44,329 nucleotides of DNA, from IMG/VR virus record IMGVR_UViG_3300032087_001318, positions 1 to 44,329 of that record; one strand, given 5' to 3'. Positions 10,157 to 39,096 of the stretch are shown here, in pieces. The translations under genes and the position numbers were made by a program. The notes under the pieces are model-generated. The model saw only the letters and a list, made by a program, of their open reading frames with translations. It searched no databases and was not told the origin of the DNA. Positions within the stretch are counted from its first letter, which is position 1; every line of letters starts with the position of its first letter. Origin of the DNA: a virus.

Positions 10157-11667
10157 AATGCAAACCCATATTGTGATTGTGACTCGATGATATGCAGAGC
10201 TTTCTTGGCACGAGTCATACCAACATAGAACGTACGAATCTCGCCGTCCTGATCTTCGCTTTCAGCGCAGGCCCTAGATGAATCTAAAAGAAGGGCGACG
10301 TTATCCGCCTCGCCACCCTTTGCTTTGTGTATTGTTGATATCTTGATCCTCGGCTTGTCCGTCAGGATCTTCTCCCCCCTCTGTCGGGCAGAGGTAATGT
10401 ATATTCTCTCCCGCTCTGCCACTTTCAATACTTCGTACCAAGGCTTCTCTTTCAAGTCGCTGATAGAGAAGTTCTCTTTTACGTCGTCGAGAAGGTAGGG
10501 AATTTCGTTGTCGAGGGTGGCTAGTTTCTTCCTTCCAGATCTGACCACGATATCCGATTTCAATAACGTGGATAATATTTTCAGTTCCGTCGCTGTAGCT
10601 GTTAAACCTTTGCATAATTTAAGCCATACCTCTATTCCAGTTAGTACATTGGGTGAGATGGACCAACCAGAACCCTCGCGCCAGAACAGGTAACCCTGCT
10701 CCTTGAGGTCTGCTGCAATCTTGTTTGCGATGTAATTTGTTCGAGCAAGGATCAGCCACTCGCCGCTGTTTAGATTGAGGTCCATTATGTCGTGATGCCA
10801 GACAACTTGCCCAGCCTCATTTACAGGGGACCACACTTTTGGCTGTCGCACAACCACTCGATTTACTAGAGAATCCGCAATGTTATAGATGTTTCGCGGA
10901 AGACGATATGACTTATCTAACACCGTCTTATGATCAGATGCATTAAGAAAATCTCGCACGTCTACACCCATCCAAGAGTAGATGCACTGGTCATCATCAC
11001 CTGCAAAATAGATGCGCTTTGCCCGTGGCTTCAACACCTCATGAACCATGCGCCACTGTAACGGGGCCAAGTCTTGTGCCTCATCGACTATCAGGACCTC
11101 TAACCTCGGTCCTTCGCCCTGTGCTATAAAGCGTTCAATCATGTCTACAAAGTCAAGCTTACCTGTGTCGCGCTTATAATCGTGGAGCACCTGCTCTGCA
11201 ACTTTCACTTGCTGATAGTGCAGATTCCTGTTGTTGGTGTCACTGAATTGCTGTTCGAGACTGACCTCACGCACCCTAGCTAATTGGATCATGGACAGAT
11301 AAGCATCACCACTCCTGCCCGGAGAGAAGAGTTGCCCATCAGCCATTGTTAGAGAAGAGTTGGAAGAAAACTCTAACCCCAATATATTGCCAAGTTGCGC
11401 GAAGTCAGTCCCTCTGAGCACCTGCCCACGGCTGATACCCAGAAACTGAAAGGCCATTGAGTGTAGTGTACGAAACCAAACCATCTGGTCAGGGTTCATA
11501 CTCAAAGCAGATGCCGCACGAGTCCGCGCTTCATCCGCCGCCTTACGGCTGAAGGACACGAACGCTATATCCTCCGGCCTTGTACCATCTTCAAGTTCCT
11601 GCTTGACGATAGATATAAGCTTGGTTGTTTTGCCAGTGCCAGGTGGCCCAAAGATTGTAGTCTGCAT
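10153..11667 (-). CDS. Superfamily 1 (UvrD/Rep-like) DNA helicase
   Basis: This 504-aa ATP-dependent DNA helicase has motif I GPPGTGKTT (7-15), Ia FSRKAADEA (39-47), motif II DEAQD (195-199), motif III GDDDQCIYSW (223-232), motif IV region SYRLP (253-257), motif V TIHKAKGGEADNV (about 446-458) and motif VI YVGMTRAKKAL (481-491). It is shorter than UvrD (about 720 aa) because the 1B and 2B inserts are reduced. Placed between primase and polymerase, it is a candidate for the fork helicase, since no DnaB-type helicase is present in the window. The stop of the primase overlaps its start by one base. Confidence 0.93.
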   Translation of the reverse strand: MQTTIFGPPGTGKTTKLISIVKQELEDGTRPEDIAFVSFSRKAADEARTRAASALSMNPDQMVWFRTLHSMAFQFLGISRGQVLRGTDFAQLGNILGLEFSSNSSLTMADGQLFSPGRSGDAYLSMIQLARVREVSLEQQFSDTNNRNLHYQQVKVAEQVLHDYKRDTGKLDFVDMIERFIAQGEGPRLEVLIVDEAQDLAPLQWRMVHEVLKPRAKRIYFAGDDDQCIYSWMGVDVRDFLNASDHKTVLDKSYRLPRNIYNIADSLVNRVVVRQPKVWSPVNEAGQVVWHHDIMDLNLNSGEWLILARTNYIANKIAADLKEQGYLFWREGSGWSISPNVLTGIEVWLKLCKGLTATATELKILSTLLKSDIVVRSGRKKLATLDNEIPYLLDDVKENFSISDLKEKPWYEVLKVAERERIYITSARQRGEKILTDKPRIKISTIHKAKGGEADNVALLLDSSRACAESEDQDGEIRTFYVGMTRAKKALHIIESQSQYGFAL

Positions 11668-13199
11668 TAGAACGGCACCTCACTGTCAAGCTCGATGCTT
11701 GGCACTTGGACCTCGGCATTGAACATCGGGACCCACCACACACGAGCGTTCTTCCAGTCTCCCTTCGTAGTTTTAAATTTTTTCTGACCATTGGCGGTGC
11801 CGTTGTCGTTCAATTCTTTTAACCGCTCTTGAATCTGACCACGACTGTAACTGTCAAACTTCTGATTGCGTAGGTATTTAAGCAGTGCCTCTAGTTTAAA
11901 ATAGGTCATCCCCTCTTCATCGTCCGTAAAGGGTTTGCCAAGTGCGATCTCTTCAAATGATTGTGCCTGTACCCGACCGTCACAGAACGCTTCTAGCAGG
12001 TCCATGAACTGGCCTTTATAGGTAAGTTCTTCCGGTACATCTATCTCACTCATGCCGTCCATCAACATGGACACAACCTCTTGCCAGTCAGCCATCTTCA
12101 TCATCGGAGGCATGACATGAATCTGTTCCATGCAGGCTTTCTGAAAACGCTGTGGTGTTTGCAGGTCATCGGTTGTCAGTTCAACACGGCGACCACCTAC
12201 ATCACAGAACCAGACAGGCGGTTCGGACTTAACCACACACAGACCAGTGATCTCCACATGCTGAACGTGGCTACCTATTCCACATGTCTTCGTTTTGCAG
12301 AGGCTTTTGTTGCAGAACGATTTGAGGGGTTCTTGGTCACAGGGGAAACCATATTCCTTCTTCTCGTGTTGAGACTGAATAGTGACGATTTCAGAAGCTG
12401 GTAAAGGGGGCGCACAGTATTTGACATTAATTTCTTCAAGACGTTCTCTCCACTTCTCAGGCTGTTCTTTCTTGGCACCGACAGCGGCGGCGAACATAAC
12501 TGTGTTGCGCGTACCCTCTGGTATGCCCTGACTAAACATATGCGACAGACACGGTGCCCACTGTTCAAACTCATTGACAGGTTCACCAAGCTGTAGCTTT
12601 TCAAAATCTTTGGGGTTGGTTCTTCTGGCTTCTACTATATCCAGAAATTCGGTAAGGTCCGCTTCGTCTCCGTCTTCTTTGACAGCGTAACGCATCGTCT
12701 GTTCCGCATCAAAGTACGGAAGGTTAATGAAGTTTCCAACATCGCCACGCTCGACAAGAATCTCTTCTTGCTTCGGGAATATTTCGCAGCCACCGTATCC
12801 AAGGTAGGCAGCAATTTCTGTGGCTTTGTCACGGAAAACACCTGCACTAAAAAATTCTGTAAAGAAGAAAAAGATGTGGGCACCACCTGACTTCGAGCGG
12901 CAGACCACACATGGAATATCGTTGTCACGCAGCTTCTTGTCAAGTGCAACAAGGTCGAGTGGATACTGGTCAATGTCCAGCGCACCGAACTTACATTGAT
13001 TGTTTTCGTTGATAGGTATAGAACCCACGCCATGCTTACCCTCAAGGTGTGCGACGATAAGTTCCAGTGTTAGTGGCTTCCGAACAATGAATGACTTCGC
13101 CTTTTGTTTTCCAGCGCGTCTCTCATCTGATATTTGTGTCTGTCCATGTGCGGCAGTAAAGCCTTCAAACGCCGCCATGAACCGTTCAGCTTGGTTCAT
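11667..13199 (-). CDS. Archaeo-eukaryotic primase of the TOTE-like clade
   Basis: This 510-aa putative replicative primase has the AEP core at residues 40-165. PLTLELIVAHLEG is followed by the metal-binding D75-x-D77 (FGALDID), the nucleotide-binding SGGAH (H108, SKSGGAHIFFFF), then IFPKQ (140-144) and GNFINLP (155-161), the motif series seen in primases of TOTE conflict systems. A second region, PEGTRNTVMFAAAV (228-240), plus C287, C296, C301 and C306 resembles a primase C-terminal metal-binding module. The C-terminal half is unassigned and may bind helicase. The protein ends ELDSEVPF, an SSB-like acidic tip. The ribosome site is GGAG seven bases before ATG. Confidence 0.88.
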   Translation of the reverse strand: MNQAERFMAAFEGFTAAHGQTQISDERRAGKQKAKSFIVRKPLTLELIVAHLEGKHGVGSIPINENNQCKFGALDIDQYPLDLVALDKKLRDNDIPCVVCRSKSGGAHIFFFFTEFFSAGVFRDKATEIAAYLGYGGCEIFPKQEEILVERGDVGNFINLPYFDAEQTMRYAVKEDGDEADLTEFLDIVEARRTNPKDFEKLQLGEPVNEFEQWAPCLSHMFSQGIPEGTRNTVMFAAAVGAKKEQPEKWRERLEEINVKYCAPPLPASEIVTIQSQHEKKEYGFPCDQEPLKSFCNKSLCKTKTCGIGSHVQHVEITGLCVVKSEPPVWFCDVGGRRVELTTDDLQTPQRFQKACMEQIHVMPPMMKMADWQEVVSMLMDGMSEIDVPEELTYKGQFMDLLEAFCDGRVQAQSFEEIALGKPFTDDEEGMTYFKLEALLKYLRNQKFDSYSRGQIQERLKELNDNGTANGQKKFKTTKGDWKNARVWWVPMFNAEVQVPSIELDSEVPF

Positions 13200-13223
13200 A
13201 AGTTGCTCCGGGCAAGAGAGGAA

Positions 13224-13252
13224 GGGGGCAGGGTGTCATCGGCCCTGCCCCC
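13224..13252 (-). terminator. Leaky terminator/attenuator between SSB-like and primase genes
   Basis: GGGGGCAGGG and CCCTGCCCCC form a perfect 10-bp GC-rich stem with a 9-base loop. On the leftward transcript it is followed by a pyrimidine tract (TTCCTCTCTT) rather than a pure U-run. It fills the 60-base gap between the SSB-like gene and the primase in an otherwise gapless operon. Partial termination would give more SSB than primase, which is inference. Confidence 0.65.
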
Positions 13253-13258
13253 AACTGG

Positions 13259-14056
13259 TTAAAACGGTACGTCTGTGTCGTCAGTTGTGACTGTGTCAGT
13301 CTGACTGTCTTCACCTGTACTCATCTTAATCTCTCCAGCGCGGTACGAGTTGTACAAGTCACGCGCTTCCTGCAACGCAGGCATCGGCACGGACTCCATC
13401 TCTAGCTGCTGAACTTGGTAGTTGAACCACGAACCTTTGTCGTTGGATTCCTGAGTGGATGTAAGCTTCCACGGAACTGCCCACATAGGTGGGTTGAACA
13501 GGCCCTTGGTTGGGTGCATGATCTTCAGACCAGCGCGACGTGTGTTCCACTGCTTTGCGATCTTCATTTGTGTCTTCTTCATGTCACAAATCATCTGCGT
13601 GGTCATGCCATTGTCATCGTACGCCAACACAAGAAACTGTGCGGACCGAACAAGTTCGTTGCCGTTTGGCAGCATTTCATTTGCACCGACACGATTGGTC
13701 TGGCGAATGTCTGGGTTGTTGGCATCCAACTCACCCATAAATCCACCGCCATTTTCACGCAACTGGAACTCCAGAAACTTTGTGGTGTACGCGCACATTA
13801 ATACGTTCACACCTTCATCAGCTTCCCAAAACTCACCAGTTACGGTGTTGAAGATATCACCAGCGGATGCGCCTTTGATAAACTTCGGGTCAGTCTTTAT
13901 TAACTGTGGTGACAGAGGCTGAAGAATCCGCAAGAACGGAATCTGCATATCATCTGCACTAATGGTTTCCATGCCCTGACCTGCCGCTTCGTACAGATCG
14001 TCCATGATATTAGCAACTGCTGTGCTTTCTTTTTTTACTACTGCTGCTTCAGCCAT
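13259..14056 (-). CDS. Putative single-stranded DNA-binding protein
   Basis: This 265-aa protein has no canonical OB-fold signature that I can read. Its acidic C-terminus ends TTDDTDVPF, the tip type of E. coli SSB (DDDIPF) and T7 gp2.5, which recruits replication partners. The conserved opening AADDMQIPFLRIL-like segment (SADDMQIPFLRILQPLSPQL, 33-52) recurs in marine phage proteins next to primases. A ribosome site (GGAGCTAAAG) precedes the ATG. It is followed by a hairpin that may raise its level over the primase. The SSB role is inferred from tail and context. It could instead be another accessory replication protein. Confidence 0.6.
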   Translation of the reverse strand: MAEAAVVKKESTAVANIMDDLYEAAGQGMETISADDMQIPFLRILQPLSPQLIKTDPKFIKGASAGDIFNTVTGEFWEADEGVNVLMCAYTTKFLEFQLRENGGGFMGELDANNPDIRQTNRVGANEMLPNGNELVRSAQFLVLAYDDNGMTTQMICDMKKTQMKIAKQWNTRRAGLKIMHPTKGLFNPPMWAVPWKLTSTQESNDKGSWFNYQVQQLEMESVPMPALQEARDLYNSYRAGEIKMSTGEDSQTDTVTTDDTDVPF

Positions 14057-14058
14057 CT

Positions 14059-14622
14059 TTAGCTCCTTGATATTTTAGCTTCAGTTCCAACAAATACACC
14101 GAACGTGTCGAAGTCTATTTCGCCACCACTCTCGATGCGGTTTTTTACCCACGCCTTCAGCGTCTGCGGATGGACGTGAGTTTTTTGTGCAGGTTCCAGA
14201 CCCTGATTGCGGAGGTCATCGACGACAGCCCCAGCCATATTGTCTTCGCCAGACTTGAACGAAACAGTTACATCATTCTTGATAATGTCTCCTTCGCCAA
14301 TAGAACGTAGCCATGTAAACGCTTCGTCCTTCTTGTCGTCGGCAATACGCGCATGAACAAACTGCCGCAAAGCAACCTTGTTGCCATCGACCGTAACAGA
14401 GTCCATGCCCATCTCCTGCATCAGGTTCGGGATGTCTTCTTCATTCACTTTACGTTTCTGGAATTTGAGGTCTTTCAGATATTGCTCTGCTTCTGCAATC
14501 TTCTGATCCACCTCCATTGATTGACGGATGAGATTGGACAAAGTACTGCCCTTCTCTCCGTCTACTTTGTCGAACTTATTGGCATCGACTTCCTCATCAA
14601 ATAGCGAAAACACATCGCTCAT
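14059..14622 (-). CDS. Coiled-coil protein of the replication operon, 187 aa
   Basis: I chose the ATG at 14622 over an upstream in-frame ATG because AGGAG sits eight bases before it. The protein has a clear coiled coil near residues 30-62 (DQKIAEAEQYLKDLKFQKRK), an EMGMDSVTVDG turn, a mixed domain, and a conserved-looking KTHVHPQTLKAWVKNRIESG segment. A gene of this type sits next to the SSB-like gene in related marine phages (pattern memory). The function is unknown. It may be a nucleic-acid or host-factor binding accessory protein. There is a 2-base gap to the next gene. Confidence 0.75.
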   Translation of the reverse strand: MSDVFSLFDEEVDANKFDKVDGEKGSTLSNLIRQSMEVDQKIAEAEQYLKDLKFQKRKVNEEDIPNLMQEMGMDSVTVDGNKVALRQFVHARIADDKKDEAFTWLRSIGEGDIIKNDVTVSFKSGEDNMAGAVVDDLRNQGLEPAQKTHVHPQTLKAWVKNRIESGGEIDFDTFGVFVGTEAKISRS

Positions 14623-14705
14623 CGTACAATCTCCTGTACTTTCTACGTTAAAGTTTAACCCCTTCGGGTGTGACGGAGAGTATAGACCCACTCCCCAGAG
14701 GTATG

Positions 14706-14852
14706 TCAAGCAGCTTTTTCTTGAGACGTTGCAGTCTTAACAATATGCGCCAATTCACCACTGACGCTCCTGTCGTTCTTCTCTGCTCGTGTCTTCAGAA
14801 TTTTGTAAACGTCAATGTTCACTGCTACTGATTTCCACTTCGTGGTGTCCAT
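14706..14852 (-). CDS. Small ribbon-helix-helix transcription regulator, 48 aa
   Basis: KWKSVAVNIDVYKILKTRAEKNDRSVSGELAHIV has the Arc/CopG pattern. A beta strand (KSVAVNI) is followed by helix A (DVYKILKTRAEKN) and helix B (SVSGELAHIV). Such proteins bind DNA as dimers through paired strands in the major groove. The ATG has a GAGG ribosome site. It is the first gene after a promoter-like sequence and heads the SSB-primase-polymerase block, so autoregulation is plausible. It is the only clear sequence-specific DNA-binding regulator in the window and a candidate ligand for the inverted-repeat operators at 24.0 and 24.7 kb. Confidence 0.75.
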   Translation of the reverse strand: MDTTKWKSVAVNIDVYKILKTRAEKNDRSVSGELAHIVKTATSQEKAA

Positions 14853-14886: not shown

Positions 14887-14916
14887 AGTGTATCTCATAT
14901 TTGATCGGGGGGTCAA
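14887..14916 (-). promoter_or_regulatory. Sigma70-like promoter for the leftward replication genes
   Basis: On the minus strand, TTGACC (14911-14916) and TACACT (14887-14892) are separated by 18 bases, 35 bases before the RHH gene start. Matches to consensus are 5/6 and 4/6. The -35 box overlaps the ribosome site region of the divergent nuclease gene. Transcription from the SNF2 helicase side could also run through. Confidence 0.45.
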
Positions 14917-14923
14917 GGGAAAA

Positions 14924-15475
14924 ATGAGACCAGCACATCAGGTTCGTGATGGTAAAAGATCTGAACTCATCGCCGCCTCTTGGTTGATGTCCCAAAACTG
15001 CTATGTATACACTCCCTTCATTGAACAAGGCCCGATAGACCTCATTGCCCTCACCCCAAAAGGTGAATTACTTTTGTTTGACGTGAAGACTGTGGGCCGT
15101 AGAAAGAACGGCTCAATAATTTCACGTCTGCTAACAGACATCCAAAAGAAACTGGGTGTCCGTCTTCTGTATGTGGACCTCGAAACTGGGTCCTGTGCCT
15201 TGTACCCGTACCAGCTATCCCGCTCACCAGACAACAATGCTGTGAAATATGCTGAACAACAGGCATCTAATCGTCACTTCGACGGGGGTCAAGTTCCAAC
15301 CATTGCCGCGCTTCTTCGCCCAGCGTCTTCGCTGATAGATCAATCTTATTCCGAAGAGACTTCACAATGTGAACATCAACCGTGCCCTTTGTCATCAGGT
15401 CAACATACGTCACCGGATGATGCTGACCAATACGATGAGCACGATCCTCAGACTGAACCCGTGTCTCAAGATTAA
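14924..15475 (+). CDS. PD-(D/E)XK nuclease on the strand opposite to its neighbours
   Basis: The start at 14924 follows AAGGGA. The 183-aa product carries a full PD-(D/E)XK core in its first 60 residues: E14 (KRSELIAASWL), P37-I-D39 (GPIDLIAL) and D53-V-K55 (LLLFDVKTVGR). It resembles Holliday-junction-resolvase-like or intron-type endonucleases and may process recombination or replication branches. The core ends by about residue 100. The last 69 residues are polar, low in hydrophobics, and encoded antisense to the SNF2 helicase C-terminus, including its motif VI. It is the only rightward gene within 14.5 kb of leftward genes. Confidence 0.75.
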   Translation: MRPAHQVRDGKRSELIAASWLMSQNCYVYTPFIEQGPIDLIALTPKGELLLFDVKTVGRRKNGSIISRLLTDIQKKLGVRLLYVDLETGSCALYPYQLSRSPDNNAVKYAEQQASNRHFDGGQVPTIAALLRPASSLIDQSYSEETSQCEHQPCPLSSGQHTSPDDADQYDEHDPQTEPVSQD

Positions 15476-16724
15476 AGTCATTGGCATAGTAGATCACGTT
15501 CGTTGCAGCCGTCAGTGTCAGGCCATAGCCAGCGGTCTGTGGGTTGGCAACGAAGAACCTTGCATCTCCAAACTGAAACTGTTTGATAGCTTCTTGTCTG
15601 TCAGCATCGGACGTATCACCGAAGTAATTGACCGTAGATCCTGGGCCATACTTTGACTCCAACACGACTGCTATCTTTCGTATGTCGTACCGGAACCGAG
15701 ACCAGATGATAACCTTACCCGACATCTCCTCAACTGTATCAAGCAGGGCATCAATGCGCTTAGTCGGGAACTCTACCAGTTCGCCATCGTCTGTCATCAG
15801 ATGACCACACAGCACCTGTTGTAACCGCAGTAGTTGTGTCATGACCGCTGGCGCAGAGACCAGCTGTCCATCATCGAGCAAAGCAATAGCCGCTGTCTTG
15901 ATGGAGTGATAGTACTGTATCTGTTCTTTTGTGCAGTACACTTCACGGGTGGTGTAAATCTTATCTGGCAAGTCAAGTGCTTCATCCTTGGTCACACGAT
16001 AAGAAAAACCTGCCAGTTTATCCGACAATTCTTCTAGCATACGGTAGCCCACAATCTGCTGAAAGCTGTGCGAACCCATGCGCTGAGTCCGTGTGATAGC
16101 GTACCTACCTTGGAAGGCGTAGTAACTATCGAAGCCGAGCAGTCTTTTGTCCATGAATCCGCATTGTGCGTAGAGATCCATAGGCGATTTAGTAACGGGC
16201 GATCCGGTAAGGATACGTTTGTACGTTGCACTCTGACCAAACTTAACCAAAGCTTTAGTCCGCTTGGCCTTGGGGTTCTTAATAGTTGTGCTCTCATCGA
16301 CCGCAAGTAAGAAAGTCGAGCCTTGTGTAAAGAGATCCACATATTGAGAGACCTTCTTCGACGCTCCAAATCCTTCCACGTTGACCAGCAAGATGCGGAA
16401 CTTATCACGCTTCTCAACCCCTTCGGATAGACGTTCTCTCTGAGTCTTGTTAGGGTTCGCACTCCACACATATATCTCAGGGTCAATGTCTTCTGGTAAA
16501 TGAGTTGGTATTTCTGATACCTGCCAGTTTCGATAGACACCCTTCGGCGCAACGATGATTGCTGTGTCGATAAGCTTGTTGTCGTAGAGCCATGTGATGT
16601 TGTCGAGCAAGACCTTCGACTTGCCACACCCCATCTCCATGAAGTACCCAAAATTTTTGTGGTCGTATGACTTCTCAAGGGCAACCCGTTGGTGCTCATA
16701 CGGTTCGGTTCTGTATCTAAACAT
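15267..16724 (-). CDS. SNF2-family (superfamily 2) helicase/translocase
   Basis: This 485-aa DNA-dependent ATPase starts with a Q-motif-like YEHQRVAL. It then has motif I EMGCGKSK (30-37), motif Ia IVAPKGVYRNW, motif II DEST (143-146, in place of DEAH), motif III LTGSPV (172-177), motif IV VIIWSRFRYDI, motif V QTAGYGLTLTAA (about 395-406) and motif VI RAHRIGQ (428-434), which is diagnostic of SNF2 proteins. Phage SNF2 proteins are thought to remodel replication forks or displace proteins. The last 69 codons overlap the opposing nuclease gene. The start abuts the stop of the gene upstream. Confidence 0.93.
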   Translation of the reverse strand: MFRYRTEPYEHQRVALEKSYDHKNFGYFMEMGCGKSKVLLDNITWLYDNKLIDTAIIVAPKGVYRNWQVSEIPTHLPEDIDPEIYVWSANPNKTQRERLSEGVEKRDKFRILLVNVEGFGASKKVSQYVDLFTQGSTFLLAVDESTTIKNPKAKRTKALVKFGQSATYKRILTGSPVTKSPMDLYAQCGFMDKRLLGFDSYYAFQGRYAITRTQRMGSHSFQQIVGYRMLEELSDKLAGFSYRVTKDEALDLPDKIYTTREVYCTKEQIQYYHSIKTAAIALLDDGQLVSAPAVMTQLLRLQQVLCGHLMTDDGELVEFPTKRIDALLDTVEEMSGKVIIWSRFRYDIRKIAVVLESKYGPGSTVNYFGDTSDADRQEAIKQFQFGDARFFVANPQTAGYGLTLTAATNVIYYANDFNLETRVQSEDRAHRIGQHHPVTYVDLMTKGTVDVHIVKSLRNKIDLSAKTLGEEARQWLELDPRRSDD

Positions 16725-21337: not shown

Positions 21338-21762
21338 GCATATGCCCGTAGCATTTCACTGTGTCTCATGCTGGCAGTCTCATGCCAGTGTTTTGATTCC
21401 TCGTAGTTTTCAGGGTCATAGCGACTCTCAAAAATCTTTACATACATTTCTTTATCGTAATCATCCCAACTGATGATGTAGTAGTAGTCGCACCAATGGT
21501 AGTCATCCATCAGCATATCAATGGATGTAGCCTCAAAGTTTGGAAGCAGTCGAACCTCACCGCCCTTGTAATTTTTGTTTGCCGCAACAAACGCTGCCGC
21601 AAATTCATCAGCTTCCCATCTTGGAAACTGCCAAGCATATGACTTGGCATCCTCAATGTGCGATGCCGCACCCTGTGGGTATCCATCATAATGTTTGTAG
21701 ACACCGTAGTAACAATCATCGTCCTGACGATCTTCAAAAAAATATACCGCTCTTGTACTCAT
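21325..21762 (-). CDS. Conserved hypothetical phage protein, 145 aa
   Basis: MSTRAVYFFEDRQDD...YGVYKHYDGYPQGAASHIEDAKSYAW has the STRAVY-x-F and YKHYDGYP pattern of a protein family found in many phages of varied hosts (pattern memory). The C-terminal half is aspartate- and tyrosine-rich. It is probably soluble. The role is unknown, and it belongs to the early small-gene block. Confidence 0.75.
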   Translation of the reverse strand: MSTRAVYFFEDRQDDDCYYGVYKHYDGYPQGAASHIEDAKSYAWQFPRWEADEFAAAFVAANKNYKGGEVRLLPNFEATSIDMLMDDYHWCDYYYIISWDDYDKEMYVKIFESRYDPENYEESKHWHETASMRHSEMLRAYAEAS

Positions 21763-22019
21763 TAGCTTACCCTCCAGCCTTCATCATCCAGAAGGCATAA
21801 GATGTTATCCATGAACCTTGGTTCGATGACCAAGGAACGACCAAAGAATTGCCACTCAACACCAGACTCATATGCATCATTAGATGTCTGTGTCAGCCAC
21901 TGAGCCGCATCATCATTCATAGGCTGAACCAAAACGATTGACCCTTCGTTGATGAACTTGAAATCACCGTCCTCGATCCACGAACCTATGTCCTGTATTC
22001 TTTGCGCTTCTGTTGTCAT
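21762..22019 (-). CDS. First gene of the leftward block, hypothetical, 85 aa
   Basis: MTTEAQRIQDIGSWIEDGDFKFINEGSIVLVQPMNDDAAQWLTQ is an acidic alpha/beta protein with two clear beta strands. GGAGGAAA precedes the ATG. It is the promoter-proximal gene of the long leftward operon and would be transcribed early. The function is unknown. Confidence 0.65.
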   Translation of the reverse strand: MTTEAQRIQDIGSWIEDGDFKFINEGSIVLVQPMNDDAAQWLTQTSNDAYESGVEWQFFGRSLVIEPRFMDNILCLLDDEGWRVS

Positions 22020-22049: not shown

Positions 22050-22088
22050 TCATAAGACCATATTATAAGACCACATGGGATAGTCAAG
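22050..22088 (-). promoter_or_regulatory. Candidate leftward early promoter
   Basis: On the minus strand, TTGACT (22083-22088) lies upstream of a perfect -10 TATAAT, but only 14 bases apart, so the true -35 is uncertain. The spacer contains TATCCCAT, one half of the inverted repeat found in the 24.0 and 24.7 kb promoters. It is placed 35-65 bases before the first gene of the leftward block. Confidence 0.45.
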
Positions 22089-22847: not shown

Positions 22848-23178
22848 GAACCGTGTTTCGGAGGGGATGCCAGACTGTTATCTGTGCATTGATGGCGTAC
22901 CAGTATGGGTTGAATTAAAAATAACAAAAAATAACGCAATCGAGATACAACCCTCACAGATTGCATGGCATACCAGCCATTCTCGCTGTGGTGGCGTAAG
23001 TTTTTTTCTTGCTTACAGCCCCTCTGAGGGACTTGCTTTTTTATTTGACGGGGGTTTAGCGGCCCAGATCCAAGGTGCGAGGTTCGATGACCTGCGGCCT
23101 GCGGCCTTATTCTCTGGTGATCTAGATTCTTGTGCCTCGAACCTGCGGCCTGCGGCCTGCGCCCTCTGGTCTTTATAA
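22762..23178 (+). CDS. VRR-NUC-like PD-(D/E)XK nuclease with repeat-derived C-terminus
   Basis: This 138-aa protein has a compact nuclease core: E29 (QRIENRVSEG), P37-D38 (MPDCYLCIDGV), E51-L-K53 (VWVELKI) and Q63/Q66 (IQPSQIAWH), the order expected for VRR-NUC or Holliday-junction-resolvase-like enzymes. Such enzymes next to terminase may trim branched DNA before packaging. The core ends near residue 95. The tail contains two LRPAA segments translated from CCTGCGG heptad repeats. The gene begins inside terS in another frame (ribosome site GGGGG eight bases upstream). Confidence 0.8.
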   Translation: MPKSLNTERKLWLSLKKSLPKKTHCQRIENRVSEGMPDCYLCIDGVPVWVELKITKNNAIEIQPSQIAWHTSHSRCGGVSFFLAYSPSEGLAFLFDGGLAAQIQGARFDDLRPAALFSGDLDSCASNLRPAACALWSL

Positions 23179-23212
23179 AAGAGTGGGCCACCTGCGTCCT
23201 GCGCCTGCGGCC
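23091..23212. repeat. CCTGCGG heptad repeats A, B and C
   Basis: Tandem heptads occur at 23091-23106 (CCTGCGGCCTGCGGCC), 23142-23163 (the same plus a third unit) and 23191-23212 (a diverged copy with T and C substitutions). A and B lie in the 3' end of the nuclease gene, C after it. All copies have the same orientation as the copies at 24.0 and 24.7 kb. Confidence 0.9.
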
Positions 23213-23234
23213 CAAAGTTATTGGAGAATCTAAA

Positions 23235-23423
23235 ATGATCATGATCAGAATAAGAGATGTCCAGACTGATGTCAATAATCAGCCTGGACAGTGTGCTCTA
23301 GTGTTTGGGATAAGATACGGTTTTGACTTCACGAGACCAACAGGCCCGGCAGTCTCCACAATAGCCAAGGTCAATCTTGCCTATTTGCTTTTCTTTCTTT
23401 GCGGTTTCGTATTCGTCGTGTGA
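23235..23423 (+). CDS. Doubtful small rightward gene, 62 aa
   Basis: An ATG at 23235 follows GGAGAATCTAAA, close to the GGAGAATAAAA leader of neighbouring cassettes. The first 32 residues (MIMIRIRDVQTDVNNQPGQC...) look like a small domain. The remainder is antisense to the 3' end of the gp88-like gene and becomes a hydrophobic run. A strong hairpin (23258-23290) lies inside it. It could equally be chance. Confidence 0.3.
   Translation: MIMIRIRDVQTDVNNQPGQCALVFGIRYGFDFTRPTGPAVSTIAKVNLAYLLFFLCGFVFVV
23258..23290 (-). terminator. Hairpin just downstream of the gp88-like gene
   Basis: TGTCCAG pairs with CTGGACA and, after one mismatch, CTGAT pairs with ATCAG, around a seven-base loop. It begins eight bases beyond the gp88-like stop codon and is followed on the minus strand by a moderately T-rich TCTTATTCT. 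It is a likely 3' end for the leftward transcript, possibly acting in both directions. Confidence 0.5.
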
Positions 23424-23972
23424 TATCATCTCACCGTTCTTTTTTGTCCGGTAAGCTTCACACAGTTTGCCAATTGGCGCCGCCTTGTCTGTTATAACTG
23501 CGCTGGAATTTTCCCAATCTTTAGGCGGAGCTTTATCAATCATCGTTGCGCTGTATCTGATAACAGCATTATCTGGCAAGCTTTCCATTTTTAAAGCTTG
23601 TTGCCATAGCTTGCGTTCTTTGGTTGGTATCCAGTGTTTTTTGTTTGGTGTTAATCTGCAAACTGCGATTATCTTCAGGCAATGTGCGACGCTATGCACG
23701 TCGCCTGAATCCCACCAACGATGTTCTTTTGCCCGTCGCCTATTTAATTCTTCAACCATTACTGAAACAAACTCTGATGAGTTTAATAAATCCAGTCTGT
23801 ATTCCATAGCTTGCTGAACTATGGGCCATATGTATGCGCCTTTTAATGCATAGCATTCAAAGCAAACTGAGCCGGGAATTTTTGCCAGTACTGAACCAGT
23901 CACGCAATGCTGCGCCGGTATGGAAAAGCTAGTACCCGGCATTTTTGACGGTTTAGAAAGTATTGCAACCAT
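23298..23972 (-). CDS. Gp88-like phage protein (GP88 family), 224 aa
   Basis: The pattern KMPGTSFSIPAQHCVTGSVLAKIPGSVCFECYALKGAY, then YRLDLL, WWDSGDVHS and HWIPTKERKLW, matches my memory of the GP88 family, first defined in mycobacteriophages. The cysteines C23, C37, C40 and a C-terminal CGDCRACW (seven to eight Cys in all) suggest metal or iron-sulfur binding. The family's biochemical activity is not known to me. The leader CAGGAGAATAAAAAC precedes the ATG. It has its own promoter-operator upstream and hairpin downstream, so it is a self-contained unit facing against the flanking terminase genes. Confidence 0.75.
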   Translation of the reverse strand: MVAILSKPSKMPGTSFSIPAQHCVTGSVLAKIPGSVCFECYALKGAYIWPIVQQAMEYRLDLLNSSEFVSVMVEELNRRRAKEHRWWDSGDVHSVAHCLKIIAVCRLTPNKKHWIPTKERKLWQQALKMESLPDNAVIRYSATMIDKAPPKDWENSSAVITDKAAPIGKLCEAYRTKKNGEMISHDEYETAKKEKQIGKIDLGYCGDCRACWSREVKTVSYPKH

Positions 23973-24003
23973 GTTTTTATTCTCCTGTTGTTATGGTCTT
24001 TTT

Positions 24004-24032
24004 ATTGTATGGGATATTCCCATGTTATGCAA
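24004..24032 (-). promoter_or_regulatory. Promoter with embedded operator for the gp88-like gene
   Basis: On the minus strand TTGCAT (24027-24032), a 17-base spacer and TACAAT (24004-24009) form a sigma70-type promoter. A 6-3-6 inverted repeat, ATGGGA-TAT-TCCCAT (24009-24023), fills the spacer and touches the -10. A dimeric repressor bound there would block polymerase. The start codon lies about 30 bases downstream. Confidence 0.7.
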
Positions 24033-24040
24033 GCCCTAAT

Positions 24041-24107
24041 CCTGCGGCCTGCGGCCTTGTTCTTTTGTGTAATCCTGCGGCCTGCGGCCTCGCGCTTTAT
24101 ATATATG
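24041..24107. repeat. CCTGCGG heptad repeats D and E with conserved flank
   Basis: Two identical 16-bp copies (24041-24056 and 24074-24089) are separated by 17 bases. Copy E is followed by TCGCGCTTTATATATA, which also follows copy F 667 bp away with one or two changes. The pair lies between the terminator of the upstream unit and the promoter of the gp88-like gene. Confidence 0.9.
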
Positions 24108-24129
24108 AAAAAAAATTTTTTAAAACGAA

Positions 24130-24155
24130 ACTGGGCCAGCTTGCGCTGGCCCAGT
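24130..24155 (-). terminator. Terminator after the 69-aa gene
   Basis: CTGGGCCAGC, loop TTGC and GCTGGCCCAG form a perfect 10-bp stem, plus one flanking A-T pair. On the leftward transcript it is followed by TTTCGTTTT and further T-rich sequence. It starts 14 bases after the stop codon at 24169. Confidence 0.85.
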
Positions 24156-24168
24156 ACGGGAGAAAACC

Positions 24169-24378
24169 CTAGTTGTCATCCCAGCTTCTCAGCATGGGTT
24201 CCATGTTTCCGAACTGATTTGCTACTGCCATTAGCTCTGGGAAATGTTTTTTTACCAGTTCAATATTCTCTGGGTCCAGTAATGCTATAGCAGAGTGAAC
24301 AGTGTCCGCAGCGTCGTATAGACTGTTAATGCGAGTGTCGGGAAGCCCGACACTCTGAAGCTTTTCATAGTAGGTCAT
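24169..24378 (-). CDS. Small hypothetical protein, 69 aa
   Basis: MTYYEKLQSVGLPDTRINSLYDAADTVHSAIALLDPENIELVKKHFPELM is an all-helical soluble protein with no recognised family. Its ATG overlaps the stop of the preceding 80-aa gene (TAATG), so the two form a two-gene unit with promoter at 24.7 kb and terminator at 24.14 kb. Confidence 0.7.
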   Translation of the reverse strand: MTYYEKLQSVGLPDTRINSLYDAADTVHSAIALLDPENIELVKKHFPELMAVANQFGNMEPMLRSWDDN

Positions 24379-24620
24379 TACGCTACCTCGCTATCATATG
24401 GTTGGATTAGGTCGTCTGCTTGGCCTTCTATCTCGGCTAGCTCTTCAGCCCATTCAGCAATTTGCTCTGCCAATTCTTCAAAGGCTTCAGCAACGTGCTG
24501 GTTTTTATGCTCCATGCTATCCAGATGAAGGTCTTGTGATAGCTCCTCTGCGATGGCACGGGCCTCGCATACTGCGCTGGCAAGTTTCCTCGCCTGCTTT
24601 ATTGCCATTGTATCTAACAT
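24378..24620 (-). CDS. Acidic coiled-coil protein, 80 aa
   Basis: The ATG at 24620 follows GGAGAATAAA. A longer in-frame version would begin in the promoter and is rejected. MLDTMAIKQARKLASAVCEARAIAEELSQDLHLDSMEHKNQHVAEAFEELAEQIAEWAEELAEIEGQ is a continuous amphipathic, acidic coiled coil. It may oligomerize with its partner gene product or mimic DNA charge, both inference. It is the first gene of its cassette. Confidence 0.7.
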   Translation of the reverse strand: MLDTMAIKQARKLASAVCEARAIAEELSQDLHLDSMEHKNQHVAEAFEELAEQIAEWAEELAEIEGQADDLIQPYDSEVA

Positions 24621-24681
24621 TTTATTCTCCAATGTTGTTACCCATTTTGGGTAGTTGTCCCCATAGGTGGGGCTTGGGTTT

Positions 24682-24710
24682 AGTATATGGGATAATCTCA
24701 TAAAGGTCAA
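24682..24710 (-). promoter_or_regulatory. Promoter with embedded operator for the 80-aa/69-aa gene pair
   Basis: TTGACC (24705-24710), a 17-base spacer and TATACT (24682-24687) on the minus strand match consensus at 5/6 in each box. The spacer contains ATGGGA-TAA-TCTCAT (24687-24701), the same 6-3-6 operator at the same offset as in the promoter at 24.0 kb, with one arm mismatch. The leader of about 55 bases contains two short stem-forming palindromes before the ribosome site. Confidence 0.75.
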
Positions 24711-24740
24711 GAGCAGCTTCTACGCTACTATGTTACCACA

Positions 24741-24790
24741 CCTGCGACCTGCGACCTCGCGCTTTATATATAGTCCTGCGACCTGCGACC
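24741..24790. repeat. CCTGCGA heptad repeats F and G
   Basis: CCTGCGACCTGCGACC occurs at 24741-24756 and 24775-24790, 34 bp apart, with TCGCGCTTTATATATAG between them. These are a sequence variant (A for G) of the repeats at 23.1 and 24.05 kb. The same substitution in every unit suggests homogenization within a locus. Confidence 0.9.
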
Positions 24791-24792
24791 TA

Positions 24793-24840
24793 GGGGGCAG
24801 GCCCCCGCCTGGACGAAAAGAAAAGGGGGCCGCAGCCCCC
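24793..24840 (-). terminator. Double G/C hairpin terminator after the 58-aa membrane-protein gene
   Basis: GGGGGC-CGCA-GCCCCC (24825-24840) is followed on the minus strand by CTTTTCTTTTC, giving a plausible intrinsic terminator seven bases after the stop codon. A second hairpin, GGGGGC-AG-GCCCCC, lies at 24793-24806, close to the heptad repeats. Confidence 0.75.
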
Positions 24841-25387: not shown

Positions 25388-25405
25388 GGGGGGCCGCAGC
25401 CCCCC
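25388..25405 (-). promoter_or_regulatory. Intercistronic GC hairpin without T-tail
   Basis: GGGGGGC, loop CGCA and GCCCCCC form a 7-bp all-GC stem between the 94-aa and 121-aa genes. Its loop and inner stem match the terminator at 24825, but no T-run follows and the ribosome site begins about ten bases later. An RNA processing or stability element is more likely than a terminator. Confidence 0.55.
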
Positions 25406-25419
25406 TGTTGGTGTTTGGA

Positions 25420-25704
25420 TTATTTAAGGCGAATAACCATCTGTTGGTTTTTCTGGACCTTGTTCGCTTCAAACCAGTCGTCGCCAACTTTTGCTTTCCA
25501 TGCAGCAGCAGGGACATAATATTCTGGCTTTGGTGTTTCGAGAGTGAAAGCATCTGAATGAACGCCAGAACGAATTTCTGCTTCAAAAGCGGCTCTTGCT
25601 TTCTTGGCCTCTTTTTCGGCTAAGAGCAGGCTAGCGTATTTTGCTTGCTTGTTCCTTGTTACGGTCATTGGGCGACCAACTGGCTTTTTGATTGCTTTTG
25701 TCAT
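25420..25704 (-). CDS. Basic hypothetical protein, 94 aa
   Basis: MTKAIKKPVGRPMTVTRNKQAKYASLLLAEKEAKKARAAFEAEIRSG has an AT-hook-like KKPVGRP (6-12) followed by a charged helix, and a C-terminal FTLETPKPEYYVPAAAWKAKVGDDWF segment. It may bind DNA. The leader CAGGAGAATAAA precedes the ATG. It is the first gene of the rightmost leftward unit and has a promoter about 35 bases upstream. Confidence 0.7.
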   Translation of the reverse strand: MTKAIKKPVGRPMTVTRNKQAKYASLLLAEKEAKKARAAFEAEIRSGVHSDAFTLETPKPEYYVPAAAWKAKVGDDWFEANKVQKNQQMVIRLK

Positions 25705-25738: not shown

Positions 25739-25767
25739 GATATAATCACACTATCCCATATAGTCAA
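25739..25767 (-). promoter_or_regulatory. Promoter for the 94-aa gene unit
   Basis: TTGACT (25762-25767), a 17-base spacer and TATATC (25739-25744) on the minus strand. The spacer carries a single ATGGGATA half-site (25752-25759) rather than the full inverted repeat found in the other two cassette promoters. Confidence 0.6.
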
Positions 25768-37257: not shown

Positions 37258-37740
37258 TTGGCTAATACTACATTTAACGGTCCCGTCCGTTCAGAAAACG
37301 GATTCAAGACAATCATCAAGAACTCCACAACTGGTGCTCTTACCAATGAAATGACTTTGTCTACCTACAGCACTTCAATTACAATTGCTGCAACAGGCAC
37401 AGAGCATAAAGAATCATCTATTGGTATCCCATCCAACTTCATTCCTATGGGTGTTGCCATCACAGTAACAAGTGCCGCAGCAAATGCTGTAAACTTGGTT
37501 GACATTGGCACAGATGCAGACACAGATGGTTTCGTAGACGGCGTCACAGTTGCTATCAACTCAACAGGCTTTAAGGGCTTCTTCCCTTGTAATGGTGTGC
37601 TTGGCATGTCTGGCGGAACAACTACCGCTGCTACAGAGACTGCTGACGAAGTTGAAGTTGTGATTTCTGGTGCAGCAGGCGCTGGTGGCGTTGTCGCTCT
37701 GAAGTTCTTTGGTATTGCTTCTGATTCACCAACTGCTTAA
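37258..37740 (+). CDS. Virion surface-like protein, 160 aa
   Basis: The start is TTG at 37258 (AGGAGATAAAA upstream). The protein is rich in Ala, Thr, Gly and Ser with alternating strands (ITIAATGTEHKESSIGIPSNFIPMGVAITVTSAAANAV), typical of head or tail decoration proteins. It precedes two proteins of the same style. No family is recognised. Confidence 0.7.
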   Translation: MANTTFNGPVRSENGFKTIIKNSTTGALTNEMTLSTYSTSITIAATGTEHKESSIGIPSNFIPMGVAITVTSAAANAVNLVDIGTDADTDGFVDGVTVAINSTGFKGFFPCNGVLGMSGGTTTAATETADEVEVVISGAAGAGGVVALKFFGIASDSPTA

Positions 37741-38827: not shown

Positions 38828-39096
38828 TGGCGACAAAAAAGAAAAAATCTGTTAGTCTATCAGTGAAGCGTGGTGAGAAGCTTCCCGCCTCCAAAGGCGC
38901 AGGACTCACGGCCAAGGGCCGTGCTAAATACAACAGGGCTACAGGCTCTAAGTTGAAGGCACCACAGCCTGGTGGTGGCAAGAGACGCACGTCTTACTGT
39001 GCGCGGTCCAAGGGCCAAATGAAAATGCATAACGTTAACTGTAAGAAAACACCGAAAAAGCGTATTTGCGCTGCACGGCGGAGATGGAAGTGTTAA
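38827..39096 (+). CDS. Basic Cys-containing protein (DUF6321-like), 89 aa
   Basis: KLPASKGAGLTAKGRAKYNRATGSKLKAPQPGGGKRR is a signature found in a marine phage family (DUF6321 by memory). It is followed by SYCARSKGQMKMHNVNCKKTPKKRICAARRRWKC, which has four Cys and many Arg/Lys. It is probably a nucleic-acid or capsid-binding basic protein. It belongs to a series of tiny basic proteins. Confidence 0.75.
   Translation: MATKKKKSVSLSVKRGEKLPASKGAGLTAKGRAKYNRATGSKLKAPQPGGGKRRTSYCARSKGQMKMHNVNCKKTPKKRICAARRRWKC

Follow-up and report, generated by a model that had tools for sequence, protein, structure and literature searches.

A half-site motif in early promoters of pelagiphage-related viruses and its probable reader, a small autoregulated ribbon-helix-helix protein

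We find that four leftward promoters of a 44,329-bp IMG/VR virus contig (IMGVR_UViG_3300032087_001318, analysed over its whole length and called the window here) carry half-sites of the form WATCYYAT. Judging from sequence comparisons, this motif is likely to be the operator of an autoregulated 48-aa ribbon-helix-helix (RHH) repressor that would shut off the early promoters. The original prediction had put this RHH protein forward as the reader of the sites, and the tie between the two is now backed by the autoregulatory sites at RHH gene promoters, a search that led from DNA to the gene, the way in which RHH arm and operator vary together, and the sites and RHH-like gp13 of the cultured phage HTVC023P. 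RHH repressors whose operators lie in early promoters and in their own are a kind of regulator that is already known. The regulator–operator pair of these abundant phages is apparently undescribed: we did not find it by a literature keyword search, nor in PMC12753301 or PMC9599517 (a survey of HTVC023P-type genomes), neither of which mentions a promoter motif or an RHH regulator or contains the words ‘promoter’ and ‘ribbon’ (0 occurrences each).

Half-sites in the leftward promoters

The TerL protein of the window is ∼53–60% identical to those of the Pelagibacter phages HTVC027P and HTVC023P, phage 023Pt_psg01 and phage DSL-LC04, and the relatives of the window phage include pelagiphages that infect SAR11. 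A leftward block (∼8.0–25.7 kb) holds replication genes and numerous small genes with no assigned function, while the structural genes run rightward, starting with the terminase at 25.9 kb. The promoters and genes considered here are listed in Table 1. GC-rich, strong hairpins lie at 24130-24155, 24825-24840 and 25388-25405, the first two of them terminator-like; because these hairpins separate the small leftward transcripts, P1, P2 and P3 probably each drive a short transcript of their own.

Table 1. Promoters and genes of the window
Feature	Position	Strand	Remarks
P1, TTGCAT-17-TACAAT	24004-24032	−	GP88-like gene; −35 at 24032-24027, −10 at 24009-24004
P2, TTGACC-17-TATACT	24682-24710	−	∼80-aa-gene transcript; −35 at 24710-24705, −10 at 24687-24682
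P3, TTGACT-17-TATATC	25739-25767	−	94-aa gene; half-site ATGGGATA at 25752-25759 (−)
P4	22060-22087	−	85-aa gene; −35 TTGACT at 22087-22082
RHH-gene promoter, TTGACC-18-TACACT	14887-14916	−	imperfect half-site ATGAGATA at 14891-14898
48-aa Arc-like RHH protein	14706-14852	−	proposed operator reader; Pfam, AlphaFold, Foldseek
GP88-like protein gene (PF17338)	23298-23972	−	E 1.9e-27; downstream of P1
∼80-aa coiled-coil-like gene	24378-24620	−	downstream of P2
69-aa gene	24169-24378	−	next after the ∼80-aa P2 gene
94-aa gene	25420-25704	−	downstream of P3
85-aa gene	21762-22019	−	downstream of P4; heads a leftward series of small genes

The original prediction placed 6-3-6 inverted repeats, touching the −10, in the spacers of two promoters, and half-sites in candidate promoters at 25739-25767 and 22050-22088. 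Both are present in the sequence as read out on the minus strand, the half-sites being those of P3 and P4. The P1 dyad, ATGGGATATTCCCAT (24009-24023, plus strand), is a perfect 6-3-6 repeat and the P2 dyad, ATGGGATAATCTCAT (24687-24701), has one mismatch; each fills its 17-bp spacer and has its final base in common with the −10. At P4, the half-site TATCCCAT (22082-22075, minus-strand reading) follows directly after the −35 and forms a 10-bp direct repeat with a degenerate second half-site, GGTCTTAT (22072-22065); the −10 of this promoter is ambiguous, either TAATAT (16 bp) or TATAAT (14 bp). The second half-site of P3 is similarly degenerate. The 6-3-6 dyad that had been proposed as the operator unit describes P1 and P2, the only two of these promoters that have it, but not the general unit, which is the half-site WATCYYAT in either of two geometries, inverted (6-3-6, at P1 and P2) or directly repeated at 10 bp (at P4 and in relatives). 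A MerR-type activator that binds within the spacer was rejected as a candidate, since the spacers of P1, P2 and P3 are 17 bp and not elongated to 19–20 bp.

The comparison with shuffled sequence that was proposed as a refutation test was run, and the motif is commoner in the window than in the shuffles. ATGGGANNNTCCCAT with at most one mismatch occurs twice in the window against 0.06 expected (no shuffle of 100 had two or more copies); with up to two mismatches, the count is an unexceptional 3 against 1.5 expected. For the half-site ATGGGATA, we count five copies where 0.81 would be expected (again, no shuffle of 100 had five or more). Four of these five copies are in the spacers of P1–P4, and the fifth (37425-37432) is in the rightward, structural-gene half, away from any leftward promoter. 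When k-mers were counted de novo in spacers taken from 255 promoter-like sequences of the phage family, ATCCCAT was the top 7-mer (11 versus 0.94 expected) and ATGGGATA the top 8-mer (10 versus 0.52 expected).

Conservation of the sites in related phages

The dyad is kept at the promoters of the GP88-like gene and the ∼80-aa gene in more than 10 related IMG/VR contigs, with altered centres and an A/G exchange at the edge. The P1 dyad is conserved in L004, L006, L012, L084-L088 and L095, and orthologous P2 dyads are found in L004, L005, L006, L012, L084, L087 and L088. The P3 site of G002/L006 and G021/L084 is ATGGGATATTCCTCT, which is near a dyad, and exact half-sites are present at all four promoters P1–P4 in both of these genomes; G022 has them at three of the four, its P3 carrying ATGGGATG. 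The more distantly related G009 has four TTGAC promoters with ATGGGATA or TATCCCAT either within the spacer or next to it. Direct repeats spaced at 10 bp are found at the P4-orthologous promoter of L011 and L091 (TATCCCATGTAATCCTAT) and upstream of the P3 position in L012 (TATCCCATGTTATCCCTT). When IMG/VR was scanned for promoters containing the inverted operator, 17 stretches matched, only ∼5 of which resemble genuine promoters of this family. Absence at orthologous promoters had been named as a result that would count against the motif; we find it there, and this conservation, together with the de novo k-mer enrichment, supports the proposal that one operator is common to several leftward genes.

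The RHH protein and its own promoters

The 48-aa protein belongs to the RHH/Arc-MetJ superfamily by both fold and family profile. It matches Pfam Arc (PF03869) at 21.4 bits (cut-off 20.4); its AF2 model (pLDDT 79) has helices at residues 13–25 and 30–47; and Foldseek matches of the model include Arc (1par, TMq 0.84), CopG, PutA and AmrZ. Members of the superfamily form dimers whose antiparallel beta-ribbon enters the major groove; the model here is of a monomer, in which residues 1–12 lack regular structure. Paired half-sites overlapping target promoters and the regulator's own promoter, a feature of this superfamily, are present as sites here, their binding being predicted. The RHH gene is found in most relatives of sufficient length.

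In the window, the RHH gene's own promoter has only imperfect half-sites, and the signal is weak (p 0.05); it is stronger in L123 (ATCAGATATGAGATA, p 0.02). In distant RHH-bearing phages, the RHH gene's own promoter contains TTGCAAGTTCCCATAAACTCCTATAT or a similar sequence. With at most one mismatch, TCCCAT-N4-TCCTAT occurs 14 times in 492 kb of distant RHH loci versus 0 for the reversed control, mostly at the RHH gene's own promoter, and the RHH promoters score higher than the 258 further promoter-like sequences in those loci (Mann–Whitney p 2.6e-5). Some RHH promoters, and only these, have the repeats at 7-bp spacing. Other promoters of three of these distant phages (L163, L174, L193) also have TATCCCAT in the spacer. 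The exact 6-3-6 dyad has no match in the distant loci, where the direct repeat is found instead.

The distant loci were collected via exact peptide words, such as MDTTKWKS, and the conservation of the arm among them is partly due to ascertainment. A scan of IMG/VR that started from DNA is free of this bias, because no peptide word was used in selection; we searched for TCCCAT-N4-TCCTAT and kept the matches with a −35 at promoter spacing. Among the matches listed, a sample that includes several near-identical relatives, an RHH gene lies ∼50 bp downstream of 17 of the 35 with a promoter-spaced −35, and downstream of 2 of the 86 without one. The proteins recovered include RHHs starting MNTEKWKS and MDTEKWKS, which the peptide word could not have selected.

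Arm and operator sequence

The presence of the operator is associated with the first residues of the RHH protein. All nine genomes with an RHH that begins M/VDT[T/D]KWKS (the window and the near-identical G001 being taken as one) have ATGGGATA in promoter-like spacers, compared with 1 of 7 with altered arms. When lineages are collapsed, the association is 5/5 versus 1/7 (Fisher p 0.015), with few independent lineages. A sister clade (L010, L014, L096, L097, L009) has TTAGATA/ATCTAAT repeats in place of ATGGGATA in the same promoters, with TTAGATA in P1, P3, P4 and the RHH promoter; the sister-clade member with a known RHH, G025/L096, has the arm MNQKKWRS. Overall identity of the RHH protein is no guide to operator class, as L011 (62%) and G007 (72%) keep the operator and L096 (66%) is without it. 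Judged by these sequences, there has been apparent operator turnover inside one phage family. In G018 (L228), where the arm is altered to VDNAKYKS, we noted a perfect 16-bp palindrome, ATGGGATATATCCCAT, at oriented position 39026, shortly before TerL; it directly precedes a gene near the terminase.

Cultured SAR11 phages

In HTVC023P, four copies of ATGGGATA or TATCCCAT coincide with TTGAC promoters or lie next to them, and its gp13 (MDIDKWKSVAI) matches the RHH family by profile (E 1.2e-6). A tblastn search of the named phages found no RHH at E 0.01; the later profile search matched HTVC023P, HTVC027P and, weakly, 023Pt, the matches of the latter two being weak (E 4.8e-5 and 1.6e-3). HTVC027P, 023Pt and DSL-LC04 show no raised number of ATGGGATA copies over the whole record, and therefore only position is informative for these phages. 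The annotated start of HTVC023P gp28 (ATG at 16568, L239) lies inside a half-site ATGGGATA between a −35/−10 pair; gp28 is probably annotated too long, because the downstream in-frame ATG after AAAGGGAAAAAA appears a likelier start.

The HTVC027P ortholog of the GP88-like gene downstream of P1 is gp33, which forms an expression cluster of its own, high at 6–9 h (PMC12753301); this fits separate control without proving it. The same 2025 transcriptome study reports every early gene of HTVC027P to be of unknown function and offers a role in starting phage transcription only as a guess (PMC12753301).

Discussion

We suggest that, early in infection, host RNA polymerase would fire the strong leftward sigma-70-type promoters P1–P4, together with the promoter of the RHH gene itself. 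Once RHH dimers have built up, they would bind pairs of WATCYYAT half-sites in the spacers, either inverted (6-3-6) or direct (10 bp), and the bound protein would occlude the −35/−10 region and block polymerase. The leftward early genes would be turned down jointly and the RHH protein would limit its own synthesis, in a shut-off like those of Cro or Arc. The sites, their placement, conservation and enrichment, their closeness to RHH genes in distant phages and the co-variation with the arm are observed; that the RHH protein binds the sites, that it represses (judged from site position only) and when it does so are inferred.

The sites could belong to some other regulator, either a host factor or a phage HTH protein that has escaped recognition, with the RHH protein acting elsewhere. 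A 15-bp 6-3-6 dyad would suit small HTH repressors too, and several of the small proteins encoded leftward match no family. However, we consider this explanation unlikely, since the leftward region has no HTH protein above the family cut-off, the motif recurs at the RHH promoters of phages that otherwise differ, where it is recovered by DNA search alone, and a dimeric HTH protein is not expected to take both inverted and direct arrangements. The position of the sites bears on what a bound RHH protein would do. RHH proteins of known families work either way, as activators or repressors, but the sites here lie between −35 and −10 in normal 17-bp spacers, where a bound protein should block polymerase, and in L024, L030, L035, L040 and L043 over the −10 itself; that the RHH protein binds and activates or tunes these promoters is thus quite improbable.

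Finding the motif always at a promoter, with half-sites outnumbering full dyads, would also be compatible with an extended core-promoter preference of the host polymerase that has no operator function. We give this very little credence, since the motif is kept while its placement with respect to the −35 and −10 varies from promoter to promoter and from clade to clade, its orientation flips, the sister clade has TTAGATA in its place at these promoters, and the window's rightward terminase promoter region has no exact half-site. With the autoregulated RHH repressor as the preferred reading, we see an even chance that it is one case of a widespread self-regulating RHH shut-off switch coordinating uncharacterised early genes, in which the N-terminal arm and strand (MDTTKWKS versus MNQKKWRS) set the half-site (ATGGGATA versus TTAGATA); this reading, with its arm–half-site code, covers otherwise different marine phages, cultured SAR11 phages included.

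Among known systems, Arc of phage P22 is similar in being a small, phage-encoded RHH protein, as reflected in the Pfam and 1par matches, and its operator sits within the promoter that Arc controls, as here. The 48-aa protein differs in being only ∼23–26% identical to Arc over the fold, in its half-site, WATCYYAT, which is not known as an Arc half-site, and in a proposed regulon of several early promoters plus its own; no ant-like neighbour is found among the annotated genes. Mnt, also a phage P22 RHH repressor, is the best PDB sequence match (1mnt), although the match is weak (E 0.064) and covers residues 13–44, and Mnt has a C-terminal tetramerisation part that is missing from the 48-aa protein. 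Dimers of the RHH protein omega (ParB) of pSM19035 bind tightly where two 7-bp repeats are present, whether direct or inverted, and weakly where there is one (PMC9499535). Such orientation freedom would explain both geometries here, but omega uses contiguous heptads, whereas the direct repeats here are mainly 10 bp apart and the inverted halves ∼9 bp; both orientations occur, but contiguous 7-bp repeats, which define the omega system, are not the pattern here, direct spacing of 7 bp being confined to some RHH promoters. The RHH protein has no sequence match to omega, and we found no partition system in the window. The proposed damping of early promoters and of the regulator's own synthesis by a phage protein is comparable to the lambda Cro-type shut-off, but Cro is an HTH protein rather than an RHH protein, and no lysogeny module is recognised in the window.

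Explicit regulator and operator sites make early-gene control in this pelagiphage-related group directly testable, and in uncultivated phages the operator may be used to locate early promoters, as well as small regulators that lack annotation.

Adjacent repeats and genes

Seven copies of CCTGCGRCCTGCGRCC, made of tandem 7-bp TGCGRCC units, are found at 23091-24791 of the window (0.04 expected); the end of one copy is ∼8 bp upstream of the −35 of P1, and the repeats are kept in many relatives. These repeats may be an iteron, a site for a second regulator or inert. In HTVC027P, the corresponding place ahead of gp33 is taken by tandem repeats of another sequence (GCTTCAAGCCGCAA). Directly downstream of the RHH gene, within 11667-14709 (minus strand), there is a primase that matches the AEP-TOTE domain (E 1.3e-16), and two proteins matching the gp33- and gp34-like families of cyanophage Pam3 are encoded in the same interval. 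Between the RHH gene and a SNF2-like helicase lies a rightward ORF (∼14926-15280, plus strand) that by eye resembles a PD-(D/E)XK nuclease or a resolvase (GPIDLIALTPKGELLLFDVKT).
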